Source: Lachnospiraceae bacterium (GTDB lineage Bacteria > Bacillota > Clostridia > Lachnospirales > Lachnospiraceae). From it: a stretch of 64,000 nt of DNA. The stretch is from contig JAQUUX010000003.1 of assembly GCA_028693705.1 (NCBI GenBank), positions 1-64,000 on the forward strand, read 5' to 3'. The notes beneath the pieces are model-generated. The model searched no databases and was not told the DNA's origin. It was given only the letters and a program-made list of their open reading frames with translations. The number at the start of each line of letters is the position of its first letter. Position 1 is the stretch's first letter. The position numbers and the translations under genes are program-made. Positions 3,301 through 62,656 of the stretch are shown piece by piece.

Positions 3301-4185
3301 TAAACTTCAGTTTAGGTTACTGCAAAAGGCACAGAAAGTCCCACTATAGTACTTATCGAGGCACGCTTTCGCTACAGGAATTGCGTAGCATCACATAAGC
3401 GCATATACTACATGCGCTAAGTGATGACGCATTCCAAGTACCTCTCAAAGTACTATAGTGGGACTTTCTTTCGTTTTGCACCAACCCGGGTGCCCAGTCT
3501 GTAGCCGAGGCCAGACTATTGCAACTGTTCATTTGCTGTAACTGGGGTCTTTGCGTCACCGGGCACTATAAACTGTAGTTTAAAGGAATAAAGATTGATG
3601 TAAAGTGACGGTTCAGCCGTGTATCATATGCTCACAAGCCCGTTCTCACTACGGTAAACACGTAGCTGTACGTAGGTTCGCACAAGACGCGAACCAAGTA
3701 CAGACGTGTTTACAGTGCTTGTTCGCATACGATACACGGCTGAACCTCGTTTTACGGCAATCTGTATTTCCTTCAATCTGCAGTTTATAGTGCCCAGGGA
3801 CGCAAAGACCCCAGTTACGGCAAATGAATAGTTGCAATAGTTTAGCCTTGGCTACAGACTGGACCAACTGCAGATTGGCAACTTGAAAAGAATAACGAAT
3901 GTAACGAACAGGCAGTAGTGCGGGTGTGTATTCTTCCATTGCCTGTGAGCATGTATTAAAGCCACTTAATCATTCCAGACATTACCACAGCTATTCCGGG
4001 CAAGGACGCCCGGAAAGGAACCGCAGAGCCAGGATGGCGATTGGTTCCGTTAGCGTAAGCTGCTGCAATCTAAATGGAATGATTTAGTGGCTTTTATACG
4101 TGCGAGCGGCAATGGAAGGATACACACCCGCACCATTGCCGTCTCGTTATAATTATTATTATTTAAGTTGATAAACTGCAGTTTA
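3301..4185. repeat. Modular hairpin repeat element, copy A (885 bp)
   Basis: This gene-free stretch is one mosaic element bounded by the palindromic TAAACTTCAGTTTA (3301-3314) and TAAACTGCAGTTTA (4172-4185). In order it holds: module 1, a hairpin with perfect 21-bp arms (3333-3353 and 3449-3469) and an inner hairpin; a ~90-nt unit in reverse orientation (3479-3568); TAAACTGTAGTTTA (3569-3582); module 2, a three-tier hairpin (3610-3746); the same ~90-nt unit in forward orientation (3788-3873); and module 3, a hairpin with ~66-nt arms (3911-3976 and 4075-4140). The right end provides the TAA stop of the 4183-4770 gene. Small open frames inside have no ribosome sites and follow the hairpin arms, so I treat them as non-coding. 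Confidence 0.85.
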
Positions 4186-31090: not shown

Positions 31091-31706
31091 CAAACTGTAG
31101 GTTAAAGGAATAAGGATTGATGTAAAGGGACGGTTCAGCCGTGTATCATATGCTCACAAGCCCGTTTTCACTACGGTAAACACGTAGCTGTACATAAGTT
31201 CGCACAAGACGCGAACTAAGTACAGACGCGTTTACAGTGCTTGTTCGCATACGATACACGGCTGAACCTCGTTTTACGGCAATATTTATTTTCTTTAAGC
31301 TGCAGTTTGTGGTGCCCTGGGGCGCAAAGACCTCAGTTACGGCAGGTGAAAAATTGCAACAGTTTAGTCTTGGCTACAGACCGGGCCAACTACAGATTAG
31401 CAACTTGAAAAGGATAATGAATGTAACGAACAGGCAGTGGTGTGGGTATGTATACTTTCATTGCCTGGGAACACGTATTAAAACCGCTAATCATTCCGGC
31501 TGTAACCCAAGCTATCACGAACATGGATGTTCGTAAAGGAACCTTAGAGCCAGGATGGCGATTGGTTCCGTTAGCGTAAGTAATCGCCATCTATACGGAA
31601 TGATTTTGTGGCTTTTATACGTGTGAGCGGCAATGGAAGGATACACACCCACACCATTGCCGTCTCATTATAAACATTATTTTTTAAGTTGCTAAACTCC
31701 AGTTTG
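31091..31706. repeat. Modular hairpin repeat element, copy B (~616 bp)
   Basis: The gap between htpG and the PrsA-like gene is filled by a second mosaic element. From the left: the boundary CAAACTGTAGGTTAAAGG, module 2 with its nested hairpin (31125-31265), boundary GCTGCAGTTTGTGG, the ~90-nt unit (31305-31390), module 3 (31432-31662), and the boundary TAAACTCCAGTTTG (31693-31706). It has the same module order and orientation as the right two thirds of copy A but lacks module 1. The right end encodes the last residues and TAG stop of the PrsA-like gene (FQTGV-stop). No credible gene lies inside. Confidence 0.85.
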
Positions 31707-37562: not shown

Positions 37563-38816
37563 ATGAATTTAATACCCAAGCCTCATATACAGGCAAATAA
37601 CACTTTATTCGTAAATCAAGAAAAAGCTGTCTGGACAGCCATGTGGGGAAATGCTGTTTCCCGTCCTGATCATCTGCCCGCCGAATACGCTAAAGACATC
37701 ACACTGCGTTACCCCGTTTTTGCTCCTTTTGCAGGTACTGCACTGCGCTTTCGTTTTGACAACTACTGTGGCAGTGAACCGATTACCATTGCAGATGTTT
37801 ATGTATCTCACAAAGTAAAAGAAACGATAGAAGATACTCCCGGCACCGGATTTCGCGGCACGCTTTGCGATGCTTCTACAATAGTCCCTATTACATTTTG
37901 CGGTAAAACCAACATTACCATTGCTCCCGGTAAAAATATTCTAAGCGATGAAATTCCATTTACAGTAGTTGCAAAAGAAATGCTCACCATCAGCTTTTAT
38001 CTACCGGAGTTTACGCAGATGAATTCCTGTGTTTTCACCTCCGGCCCTTTATCCGGTGGTTTTTTCTCCAAAGGGAACCATAGTGCCGACAGGATATTCC
38101 CTGTCGAGACTGCCAGAAGCACAAACTGGATCTATTTTTTAAGTGATATTGATATATTAACCCAGCCGGAAAATCACGCGGTGATCTGTTTTGGTGATTC
38201 TATTACTGCCCAGAGCTGGCCTGATTATCTCACGCTCTTTTTAGCAGAAAATGAAAACAACCATATTTCCGTTATCCGAAAAGCTGTATGCGGCACCCGT
38301 ATCCTCAGACAATATGATTGTGTCAATTATGATTCCTACGGACTGATGGGAAAAAACCGCATGCCCCACGAATTAAATGTTACCGGCGCCACCGATATTA
38401 TTCTGCAGCATGGTATCAACGACATCATTCACCCCGTAGGGTACAAAATAAATCAGTTCCGTCCCATGAGTGATCTGCCTACTGCCAGTGAACTGGAAGA
38501 CGGCTTTGCATGGTATATCAATCAATCCAGAAATGCCGGATTACGTGTATACGGAGGCACTCTGGTACCTATCTGGAATTGGAGAACCTATGCACCTTTC
38601 CGAGAAGATCTGAAAAATGATTTTAATGATTGGATTCGAAATACGGATCTGCTAGACGATTGCATGGACTTTGATCTGGCGGTCAGAGATGATGAAAACC
38701 CTGTTGCTTTTAAAAAAGGATATGACAGCGGAGATCATTTGCATCCCAGCGAGGAGGCGTACCAGGCGATGGCAAGGTGTGTGCAGAGTAAGTTAAACTG
38801 TAGGTTAGTAACTTGA
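37563..38816 (+). CDS. SGNH/GDSL-family esterase
   Basis: A 417-residue probable carbohydrate esterase. Residues 1-180 form a beta-sandwich domain. The catalytic domain has block I VICFGDSITAQSWP (Ser213), block III ILQHGINDIIHP, and block V GDHLHPSEEAYQAM (Asp391, His394). There is no signal peptide, so it probably acts inside the cell on imported acylated sugars. This layout resembles SGNH proteins that deacetylate plant or host glycans, but the substrate is open. The last residues (LNCRLVT) and the TGA stop are encoded by the edge of repeat copy C, so the native C-terminus was probably replaced. Confidence 0.83.
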   Translation: MNLIPKPHIQANNTLFVNQEKAVWTAMWGNAVSRPDHLPAEYAKDITLRYPVFAPFAGTALRFRFDNYCGSEPITIADVYVSHKVKETIEDTPGTGFRGTLCDASTIVPITFCGKTNITIAPGKNILSDEIPFTVVAKEMLTISFYLPEFTQMNSCVFTSGPLSGGFFSKGNHSADRIFPVETARSTNWIYFLSDIDILTQPENHAVICFGDSITAQSWPDYLTLFLAENENNHISVIRKAVCGTRILRQYDCVNYDSYGLMGKNRMPHELNVTGATDIILQHGINDIIHPVGYKINQFRPMSDLPTASELEDGFAWYINQSRNAGLRVYGGTLVPIWNWRTYAPFREDLKNDFNDWIRNTDLLDDCMDFDLAVRDDENPVAFKKGYDSGDHLHPSEEAYQAMARCVQSKLNCRLVT

Positions 38817-39324
38817 AAAGAATAATTATAAAGAGACGGCAATAGTGCGGGGGTGTATCCTTCCATTGCCGCTCACACGTATAAAAGCCACTAAATCATT
38901 CCATTTAGATTGCAGCTAACTACGCTAACGGAACCAATCGCCATCCTGGCTCTGAGGTTCCTTTCAAGCCATTTATGGCTTTGGCATCCTTGCCCGGAAT
39001 AGCTGTGATAACAGTTGGAATGATTAAGTGGCTTTAATACATGTTCACAGGCAATAGAAGAATACACCCCCGCACCACTGCCTGTTCGTTACATTCGTTA
39101 TTCTTTTCAAGTTGCCAATCTACAGTTGGCCCGGTCTGTAGCCAAGGCTAAACTATTGCAACTATTCATTTGCTGTAACTGGGGTCTATGCACCACCGGG
39201 CACCACAAACTGCAGCTTAAAGAAAATAAATATTGCCGTAAAACGGGCTTGTGAGCATATGATACACGGCTGAACTGTCCCTTTACATCAATCCTTATTC
39301 CTTTAACCTGCTGTTTGTGGTGCC
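38794..39324. repeat. Modular hairpin repeat element, copy C (~531 bp, reversed)
   Basis: The gap between two convergent genes is a reverse-orientation copy: boundary TAAACTGTAGGTTA (38794-38807), module 3 (38837-39085), the ~90-nt unit (39120-39210), boundary AAACTGCAGCTTAAAG, a shortened module 2 (39215-39300) and TTAACCTGCTGTTTG (39303-39317). Module 2 has lost one hairpin arm and its centre: the sequence jumps from GCCGTAAAACG to GGGCTTGTGAGC, which in copies B and D are separated by about 115 bases, each marked by AAAACG or a close variant. The left edge supplies the stop of the SGNH gene, the right edge the stop of the MATE gene. Confidence 0.85.
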
Positions 39325-57237: not shown

Positions 57238-57829
57238 TAAACTGTAGTTTAAATGGATTAAAGCAAACCGAAAGGGACGACTATATCACTCTGAGAGGCT
57301 CGCTTTTAGTGTAAAGAGCCGGATTAGCTGTATATGGTATGCTCTCAGGCACATTCGTATTACGGTAAGGACATAGCGGCACATAAGGCTGTAAACTACA
57401 CAGCCCAAGTGCCGATGTCCTTACAGTACCTGATCGCATACCATATACAGCTAATCCTTACATTACAGCAAAGTCCAGCCTCGATGAGTGATATAGTCAT
57501 CCCTTTCTTTGTACTTTATTCCAATTTAATCTGCAGTTGCCCCAGTCTGTAGCCAAGACCAGACTATTGCAACTATTCATTTGCCGTAGCTGTGGTCTAT
57601 GCACCACCAGGCACCACAAACTGCAGCTTAAAGGAACTAAACATTGCCGTAAAACGAGGTTCAGCCGTGTATCGTATGCGAACAAGCACTGTAAATACGT
57701 CTGTACTTAGTTCGCGTCTTGTGCGAACTTATGTACGGCTACGTGTTTACCGTAGTGAGAACGGGCTTGTGAGCATATGATACACGGCTGAACCGTCACA
57801 TTAATAGCAATCCTTATTCCTTTAACCTA
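57238..57829. repeat. Modular hairpin repeat element, copy D (~592 bp)
   Basis: The gap between ilvE and the alcohol dehydrogenase gene is a fourth mosaic. From the left: boundary TAAACTGTAGTTTA (57238-57251); module 4, a nested hairpin with 21-nt outer arms (57271-57291 and 57486-57506, one mismatch), a second stem (57321-57335 with 57443-57457) and inner stems; boundary ATCTGCAGTTGCCCC; the ~90-nt unit in reverse (57538-57620); boundary AAACTGCAGCTTAAAGG; and full module 2 in reverse (57650-57800). Module 4 is unique to this copy. The right edge supplies the TAA stop of the dehydrogenase gene. There is no ribosome site or credible gene inside. Confidence 0.85.
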
Positions 57830-61278: not shown

Positions 61279-61590
61279 TTACAGTGTTGGCATACAATCT
61301 CCCACGCTGCCATGAGGTCTTGGAATGACATGTACACTGACTACTTCACCAATTCTGGAAGCTGCTTCGGAACCGGCTTCTGTGGCTGCCTTTACAGCAC
61401 CTACATCACCCTGCACAAATACAGTTACCAGACCTGCTCCAATCTGTTCCTGACCTACCAAACGTACATCTGCTGCCTTTAACATAGCATCTGCTGCTTC
61501 GTAGCTTGCTGTCAGACCATATGTTTCTATCATTCCCAAAGCCTCCAACTTAGAGGTTTCTAATTCTTTTTTTGCTGTTTCTGCTGCCAT
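61279..61590 (-). CDS. BMC-H hexameric shell protein (copy 1 of type I)
   Basis: A 103-residue hexameric shell protein of the Pfam BMC family ([20 protein letters not shown], then [28 protein letters not shown]). It has a short charged N-terminal extension. It is nearly the same as the protein at 61993-62292. It forms a gene pair with 61612-61899, and that pair is duplicated. GGAGGG precedes the ATG. Confidence 0.95.
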
Positions 61591-61611
61591 GATAAAATAC
61601 CCTCCGTTTTC

Positions 61612-61899
61612 TTATTTACCTGCCGGTCCTTTTTTTGGTAAGATTCTTGCAATGTCTGCGTGAGGTCTTGGAATCACATGTACTGCATGCAATTCTCCTA
61701 CTCTAGATGCGGCTTCTGCACCGGCCTCTGTTGCTGCCTTTACAGCACCTACCTCTCCTGTTACCACAACTGTGGTCAGACCTGCACCAATGGTATCTGA
61801 ACCAACAAATTCCACATCTGCTGCTTTTAACATAGCATCAGTTGCTTCGATATTTCCTACAAGACCCTTGGTCTCGATAAATCCAATTGCTTTTAACAT
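61612..61899 (-). CDS. BMC-H hexameric shell protein (copy 1 of type II)
   Basis: A 95-residue BMC-H protein that starts directly with the domain ([20 protein letters not shown]), with [20 protein letters not shown] and VIPRPHAD. Residues 33-52 have [18 protein letters not shown], which differs from its paralogue at 62332-62616 in the pore-side strand. AGGAGG precedes the ATG. Confidence 0.95.
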
Positions 61900-61941
61900 A
61901 GCGTCCTCCTGTTTCTTTGGAAATTATCCCGATAAAGTAAT

Positions 61942-61990
61942 CATACATTTGTAAAATGTATGCATTTATAAAATGCATGAAAATGCATGC
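61942..61990. repeat. Consecutive hairpins between the two shell-gene pairs
   Basis: CATACATTT-GTA-AAATGTATG (61942-61962) and ATGCATTT-ATA-AAATGCAT (61960-61978) are two perfect hairpins that share three bases, followed by a palindromic AATGCATGC stretch up to the stop of the 61993 gene. They lie between two translated shell genes and may set mRNA stability or expression ratio. Confidence 0.65.
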
Positions 61991-61992
61991 TT

Positions 61993-62292
61993 TTACAAAG
62001 AAGGCATACATTCTCCTACGCTGCCGTGAGGTCTTGGAATAACATGTACACTAACCACTTCTCCTACACGGGAGGCTGCCTCAGAACCAGCTTCGGTTGC
62101 GGCTTTTACAGCACCTACATCCCCCTGTACAAATACGGTTACCAGACCTGCACCAATCTTCTCCTGACCTACCAGACGTACATCTGCTGCCTTTAACATA
62201 GCATCTGCTGCTTCATAGCTTGCTGTCAGACCATATGTTTCCACCATGCCCAGTGCTTCCAGTTTAGATGTTTCTAATTTATTGTCTGCCAT
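61993..62292 (-). CDS. BMC-H hexameric shell protein (copy 2 of type I)
   Basis: A 99-residue BMC-H protein, nearly identical to that at 61279-61590: it differs mainly in the N-terminus ([20 protein letters not shown]) and single changes such as QEKIGAG for QEQIGAG and GECMPSL for GDCMPTL. It should form hexagonal shell tiles alone or mixed with its paralogues. AAAGGAG precedes the ATG. Confidence 0.95.
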
Positions 62293-62331
62293 GATATATT
62301 CTCCTTTTCTACTGAAGTTCTTCTTTGTTTT

Positions 62332-62616
62332 CTATGCTGCCGGTCCCTTAGGAGGCATAATCTTTTCCAGATCAGCATGTGGTCTTGGAATCACATGTAC
62401 GGCGTGCAGTTCTCCAACTCTGGATGCAGCTTCCGCACCTGCTTCAGTTGCAGCTTTTACGGCACCAACTTCGCCCTGTACTACAACACATACCAATCCT
62501 GCTCCGATTGCCTGGGAGCCTACAAACTCAACATCAGCAGCTTTTAACATAGCATCGGTTGCTTCAATATTACCTACCAGTCCTTTAGTTTCAATAAATC
62601 CAATTGCTCTTAACAT
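62332..62616 (-). CDS. BMC-H hexameric shell protein (copy 2 of type II)
   Basis: A 94-residue BMC-H protein paralogous to 61612-61899 ([20 protein letters not shown]). The loop [18 protein letters not shown] has a Cys near the pore where the paralogue has Thr, which could alter the pore. It lies 40 bases after the aldehyde dehydrogenase gene. GAAGGAGAGG precedes the ATG. Confidence 0.95.
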
Positions 62617-62656
62617 ATTCCCTCTCCTTCCGTCGTCTCAGGCGACCTGTTTTTCC

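Follow-up and report, generated by a model that had tools for sequence, protein, structure and literature searches.

The elements in the 64-kb window

The genes that flank the elements described here are ordinary chromosomal ones (adenylosuccinate synthetase, HSP90, MatE, Fe-alcohol dehydrogenase and others). The window, by which we mean the whole stretch of DNA analysed, 64,000 nucleotides in length, contains five full 137-nt hairpin domains (four on the plus strand and one on the minus strand), each enclosed within longer inverted arms. The domains are joined by a link segment, and a hairpin bearing TwoAYGGAY (RF01731) often comes after them (Table 1). The sequence ATGCTCNCANGC occurs six times in the window, against 0.08 copies expected.

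A further type C unit has its core deleted, and the covariance model of the family gives no match to it; the conserved core is absent, with short stems left, at L188:1001-1050 as well. Separately, positions 61279-62640 hold four direct repeats of about 297 nt at a spacing of 348-366 nt, with 63-85% identity to the first.

Table 1. Hairpin domains, units, link segments and partner hairpins in the window
Feature	Positions	Strand	Remarks
Hairpin domain type A	3333-3469	+	Left out of the model and recovered by it, E 3.8e-24
Link segment B	3480-3572	+	Inverted copy at 3784-3862
Type C unit with outer arms	3570-3786	+	
Hairpin domain type C (module 2 of the preliminary description)	3610-3746	+	15/15 pairs; covariance-model match
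Partner hairpin D with TwoAYGGAY	3866-4184	+	Rfam match 3943-4109
Hairpin domain type C	31132-31268	+	15/15 arms; covariance-model match
Partner hairpin D with TwoAYGGAY	31388-31705	+	Rfam match 31465-31630
Partner hairpin D with TwoAYGGAY	38795-39127	-	Rfam match 38869-39050
Type C unit with core deleted	39208-39309	-	Two partial blastn matches, C[176-213] and C[5-72]
Type E unit	57238-57540	+	Outer arms end AAACTGTAGTTT / CTGCAGTT
Hairpin domain type E (module 4 of the preliminary description)	57321-57457	+	15/15 base pairs; model E 3.8e-34, itself in the training set
Link segment B between units	57541-57620	+	
Hairpin domain type C, facing the type E copy at 57321-57457	57658-57794	-	15/15 arms; covariance-model match

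A conserved fold with compensatory changes

Types A, C and E, together with a type F found elsewhere in the genome, can be aligned by length and form one family of 137-nt hairpins, in which the unpaired stretches are conserved while much of the stem sequence differs. The unit consists of a long near-perfect inverted repeat and a conserved apical domain, which ends in an apical loop of 7 nt, is interrupted by the internal loops TAGC/GA and ATAA/NAA, and bears a mini-hairpin at its side. At loci L180-L184 the 6-bp apical stem is replaced by a far longer, locus-specific stem, and the conserved loops are kept.

The preliminary description of this DNA had argued for a conserved fold from compensatory changes between its modules 2 and 4. 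The arms of both (3610-3624 with 3732-3746, and 57321-57335 with 57443-57457) pair at all 15 positions, and the two left arms show exactly four differences, all four of which are compensated in the partner bases. Two sequences alone are insufficient to prove selection; the conserved fold and its compensatory changes are now strongly supported across many genera by alignments, shuffles and model searches. In an alignment of types C, E and F, both partners vary in 31 of the 48 pairs, no pair shows variation confined to one partner, and 96.6% of cells are paired; not one of 500 shuffles was as high in both-side changes or in the paired fraction, and slid structures fared far worse, while the number of further pair types was unexceptional (276 of the 500 shuffles). 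An alignment made without a structure model and anchored on a fixed core (58 of the 63 elements described below) has Watson-Crick pairs in 283 of 290 cases at five apical positions, each with three or four pair types and each unequalled in 1000 shuffles. Finally, a covariance model trained on 18 sequences (alignment A2; 33 distinct cores are listed), from which type A was withheld on purpose, recovers the type A copy of the window.

Chance or a recent inverted duplication would account for the inverted repeat itself and for nothing further. It is refuted by the shuffles, the slid structures, the recovery of the withheld type and the presence of the family in 51 of 150 genomes, and we give it practically no credence; simple recent duplication, in particular, is excluded as the sole explanation of the pairing because conserved unpaired loops sit at fixed positions. 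The 12-mer that had been reported as shared with a module 3 fared less well: its copy ATGCTCACAGGC is present, on the minus strand at 3941-3952 and at the edge of a TwoAYGGAY hairpin, but homology is not established because the family covariance model does not score that module.

Distribution among genomes

Comparison by DNA similarity with 397 Lachnospiraceae genomes returned the source genome and one short match only, and a search by model was therefore needed. By covariance model, the source genome contains about 80 distinct sites of the family at unrelated positions (81 with one added), a lower bound given that 150 of 591 candidates were scored. The 221-nt type C unit is present there in at least 40 near-identical copies that are 91-99% alike (40 of 76 candidates scored, again a lower bound). 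The family was found in 51 of 150 sampled Lachnospiraceae genomes, one for each of 150 genera and with the source genome included, 22 candidates being scored per genome so that copy numbers are lower bounds. A class-wide sample yielded matches in 6 of 291 genomes, all of them Lachnospiraceae. A search of named genomes with the core pattern gave at least 119 stretches, and nearly all of those listed belong by title to Lachnospiraceae or Clostridiales; 80 listed loci of these stretches supplied a named set of 67 elements with full flanks, or 63 without near-duplicates. Cultured species among these carriers are Butyribacter intestini and Mobilitalea sibirica. As far as sampled, the family is peculiar to Lachnospiraceae. 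Many copies were seen in a MAG titled Candidatus Gastranaerophilales (L222, L231, L251, L263, L269, L273, L279); judged by where the family occurs otherwise, this MAG is probably a Lachnospiraceae bin that was wrongly labelled or mixed.

This covarying, multi-copy structure thus occurs in one third of the sampled Lachnospiraceae genera, yet it is missing from Rfam, which gave no match to domains A, C and E in the window or to family elements at 20 other loci; one element overlaps a match to a plant-type microRNA family that lies far below the cut-off (E 0.084). No description of the 137-nt family was found in the literature searched, including the available portions of PMC2864571 and PMC11701678, and the family is apparently undescribed so far. 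Viral contigs, phages and plasmids were also searched and held zero matches, on which ground carriage by phage or plasmid was rejected.

RNA or DNA: evidence from the two strands

Under selection for an RNA, the transcribed strand would be expected to accept G.U more readily than A.C, and the count of these two mismatches is a simple aid in separating RNA-level from DNA-level covariation. In a strand-neutral count, the stems of the 63 elements have 46 G.T and 63 A.C mismatches on the plus strand, whereas 6S RNA, counted identically (30 RNAs at 30 loci, out of 57 matching genomes), has 17 G.T and no A.C (Fisher p 4e-6); read on the opposite strand, the family still differs from 6S RNA (p 3e-4). 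A second set of 45 elements has 18 G.T and 17 A.C, and G.T makes up 1 of 290 pairs in the apical stem. A count on an RNAalifold structure was dropped in favour of the strand-neutral one, as it favoured whichever strand was folded, and wobble asymmetry did not clearly point to either strand.

Orientation is likewise unbiased. In a survey of 61 of 64 matches (the 64 picked from 98 rows, mostly for sufficient flank), elements relative to tandem genes were distributed 22:18, and 12 of 59 lay in divergent gaps, between starts. With replication strand assigned by GC skew the ratio was 56:42, which is not significant (99 placed elements, one with weak skew dropped). Selection on a folded RNA, one of two forms of the reading first offered for this fold, is not borne out by the missing wobble preference, the unbiased orientation, and a dispersal and doublet formation like those of mobile DNA. 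The other form, an extruded DNA hairpin, is the better fit, with a GNRA signature that leaves room for RNA.

That signature belongs to the minus strand: read there, the side mini-hairpin of 53 of 61 elements ends in a GNRA loop above a covarying stem of two pairs (among the 8 other loops, a few are apparently sites where the search pattern matched in the wrong place). The tandem mismatches likewise read as G.A on the minus strand by 73:12. The polarity of both motifs to the minus strand, together with the slower change at most orthologous loci (see below), points to one strand that functions in folded form, be it RNA or single-stranded DNA. Loops of GNRA-like type with a C-G closing pair are stable in DNA too. 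A structured minus-strand RNA that functions at each locus, as a cis element or as one of many paralogous sRNAs and perhaps with TwoAYGGAY, would explain these motifs, the conserved loops and the fact that 8 of 9 orthologous loci change more slowly than their surroundings, and would suit the CsrA-binding role proposed for the partner TwoAYGGAY in the available text of PMC4333381. We nonetheless judge this reading, the strongest competitor of the one favoured below, rather unlikely, in view of the lack of wobble preference on either strand, the gene orientation and divergent-gap placements just given, and the high copy number, doublets and mosaics.

Doublets, mosaics and insertion sites

Units occur singly or as two facing units: in the 81-site tally of the source genome, 25 of 26 neighbours less than 700 nt apart face each other. 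Contigs 21 and 41 of genome G109 each carry three head-to-tail copies, at spacings of 187 and 178 nt, unlike the usual facing doublets. Cores and arms are exchanged, as in a mosaic copy (L035, row CE1) with type C arms and a type E core, and type F cores sit in shells that resemble those of type E.

Among the 40 type C units of the source genome, all 31 upstream ORFs of at least 80 codons end between -2 and +19 of the unit, and 22 of these 31 ends are T|AA or T|GA (with an expectation of one third, p 2e-5). Many copies start no more than some 40 nt from a stop codon, as would be expected if recombination had spread ordinary terminators of transcription or stabilisers of mRNA 3' ends. Half of the copies in named genomes, however, adjoin start codons on their left, 12 of 59 stand in divergent gaps, and the flanks displayed for divergent copies are without an obvious T-run past the hairpin base, so that this explanation is very improbable.

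Between two congeners (G206 and G573), the element is common to 9 of 10 orthologous sites compared. At the empty site an intergenic region of 301 nt with the element corresponds to 21 nt in the congener, by gain or by loss, with no clear target duplication; composite ends in the source genome, looked at for exact target duplication, have flanks that are mostly T...A. At 8 of the 9 shared loci the element changes less than its 3-kb surroundings (overall, 58 of 1220 positions against 1905 of 26198, or 7.3%), and the central 70 nt less still (14 of 630 against the same 7.3%); the exception is L378/L387, where the element changes more than its surroundings. The shared elements are slower than their surroundings and are therefore retained, not merely decaying.

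The same nine loci show 76 one-sided changes and 8 paired double changes, counts that run in both directions so that one event is counted up to twice. The fresh one-sided changes (17 G.T, 24 A.C and 35 other) have no clear bias. These numbers bear on the proposal that the arms are kept matching by mutation and not by selection, hairpin-templated repair copying one arm onto the other. Such repair would agree with the very few one-sided states in the wider alignment and with the lack of wobble preference, yet it would erase the unequal loops (TAGC/GA, ATAA/NAA and the side mini-hairpin) that are kept across genera, and one-sided changes do arise between congeners; we hold it to be improbable.

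Neither a transposase nor an excision product nor a target duplication was found for the family. Y1_Tnp is absent from the source genome, and carriers of the family do not have it more often than other genomes (25 of 51 carriers, 62 of 99 non-carriers); RAYT/Y1 machinery was accordingly rejected for want of any in the source genome and of association across the 150 genomes.

Comparison with known systems and the favoured explanation

REP doublets are inverted, with their members facing each other, and their hairpins show compensatory changes (available text of PMC3116915), while GTAG REPs give stop codons to adjacent genes (available text of PMC3733652). The present family resembles REPs and REPINs in all these respects: it consists of many interspersed intergenic palindromes, its doublets are inverted (compare PMC3116915), its hairpins vary in a compensatory manner (PMC3116915, PMC3733652), and its units in the source genome supply stop codons as GTAG REPs do (PMC3733652). 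It differs in that the REP unit is a palindrome of 20-40 bp and the conserved domain here is 137 nt long with elaborate conserved loops, and in the lack of a cognate Y1_Tnp. MITEs share with the family small size, many copies, long terminal inverted repeats and mostly T...A flanks; the family is without a demonstrated target duplication or parent transposon, and has one empty site. Integron attC sites are folded imperfect palindromes, often beside stop codons, of which the folded bottom strand counts. Family members, too, are folded imperfect palindromes that often adjoin stop codons, but their conserved part is the tip and not the base.

We lean, by a little, towards the explanation that these are dispersed mobile DNA hairpins of a REPIN/BIME-like kind, recognised in folded form by some factor. 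The substrate for recognition and copying would be the element folded in single-stranded DNA or extruded as a cruciform, and a protein of the host or of a mobile element may be the recogniser that keeps the arms complementary and the loops constant; a Y1 (IS200/RAYT) transposase encoded by the carrier genome itself is an unlikely candidate for this enzyme. Mobile DNA is favoured because copies stand at unrelated sites, mosaics, doublets and an empty site occur, and neither wobble preference nor orientation bias is seen. The case is weakened because 9 of 10 shared sites and a slowly changing core exceed what is expected of decaying mobile copies; because GNRA loops are a hallmark of RNA; because nothing in the way of a transposase, excision product or target duplication came to light and Y1_Tnp is not enriched in carriers; and because matches in viral contigs, phages and plasmids and a replication-strand bias are both lacking.

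A broader proposal, conceivable though doubtful, is that Lachnospiraceae possess in this family an undescribed and widespread structured nucleic acid, the minus strand of which, with its GNRA loop and tandem G.A, acts in folded form at each of dozens of loci in a two-part system with TwoAYGGAY; were the substrate folded single-stranded DNA, this would be a new system of ssDNA-hairpin mobilisation without a Y1 transposase.

The partner hairpin TwoAYGGAY

TwoAYGGAY has 39 matches above the cut-off in the source genome, where it stands in the same composites as the hairpin family, and is carried by 16 of 120 Lachnospiraceae genomes, several of them with 15-21 copies. Its two GGA loops have been proposed to bind CsrA (available text of PMC4333381). 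In 34 copies the arms contain 31 G.T and 26 A.C mismatches, that is, no wobble preference. Like the family, then, TwoAYGGAY is dispersed, has many copies and has long arms without wobble preference, and it differs in the two GGA hairpins at its tip; the family covariance model does not score TwoAYGGAY, nor does Rfam score the family. A high-copy dispersed repeat agrees poorly with the idea of one regulatory sponge for CsrA, and the identical tests suggest that this proposed CsrA-binding RNA is a dispersed repeat of a like class. At L041-L046, L048 and L064, further copies of TwoAYGGAY cap long inverted arms that have a different sequence at each locus.
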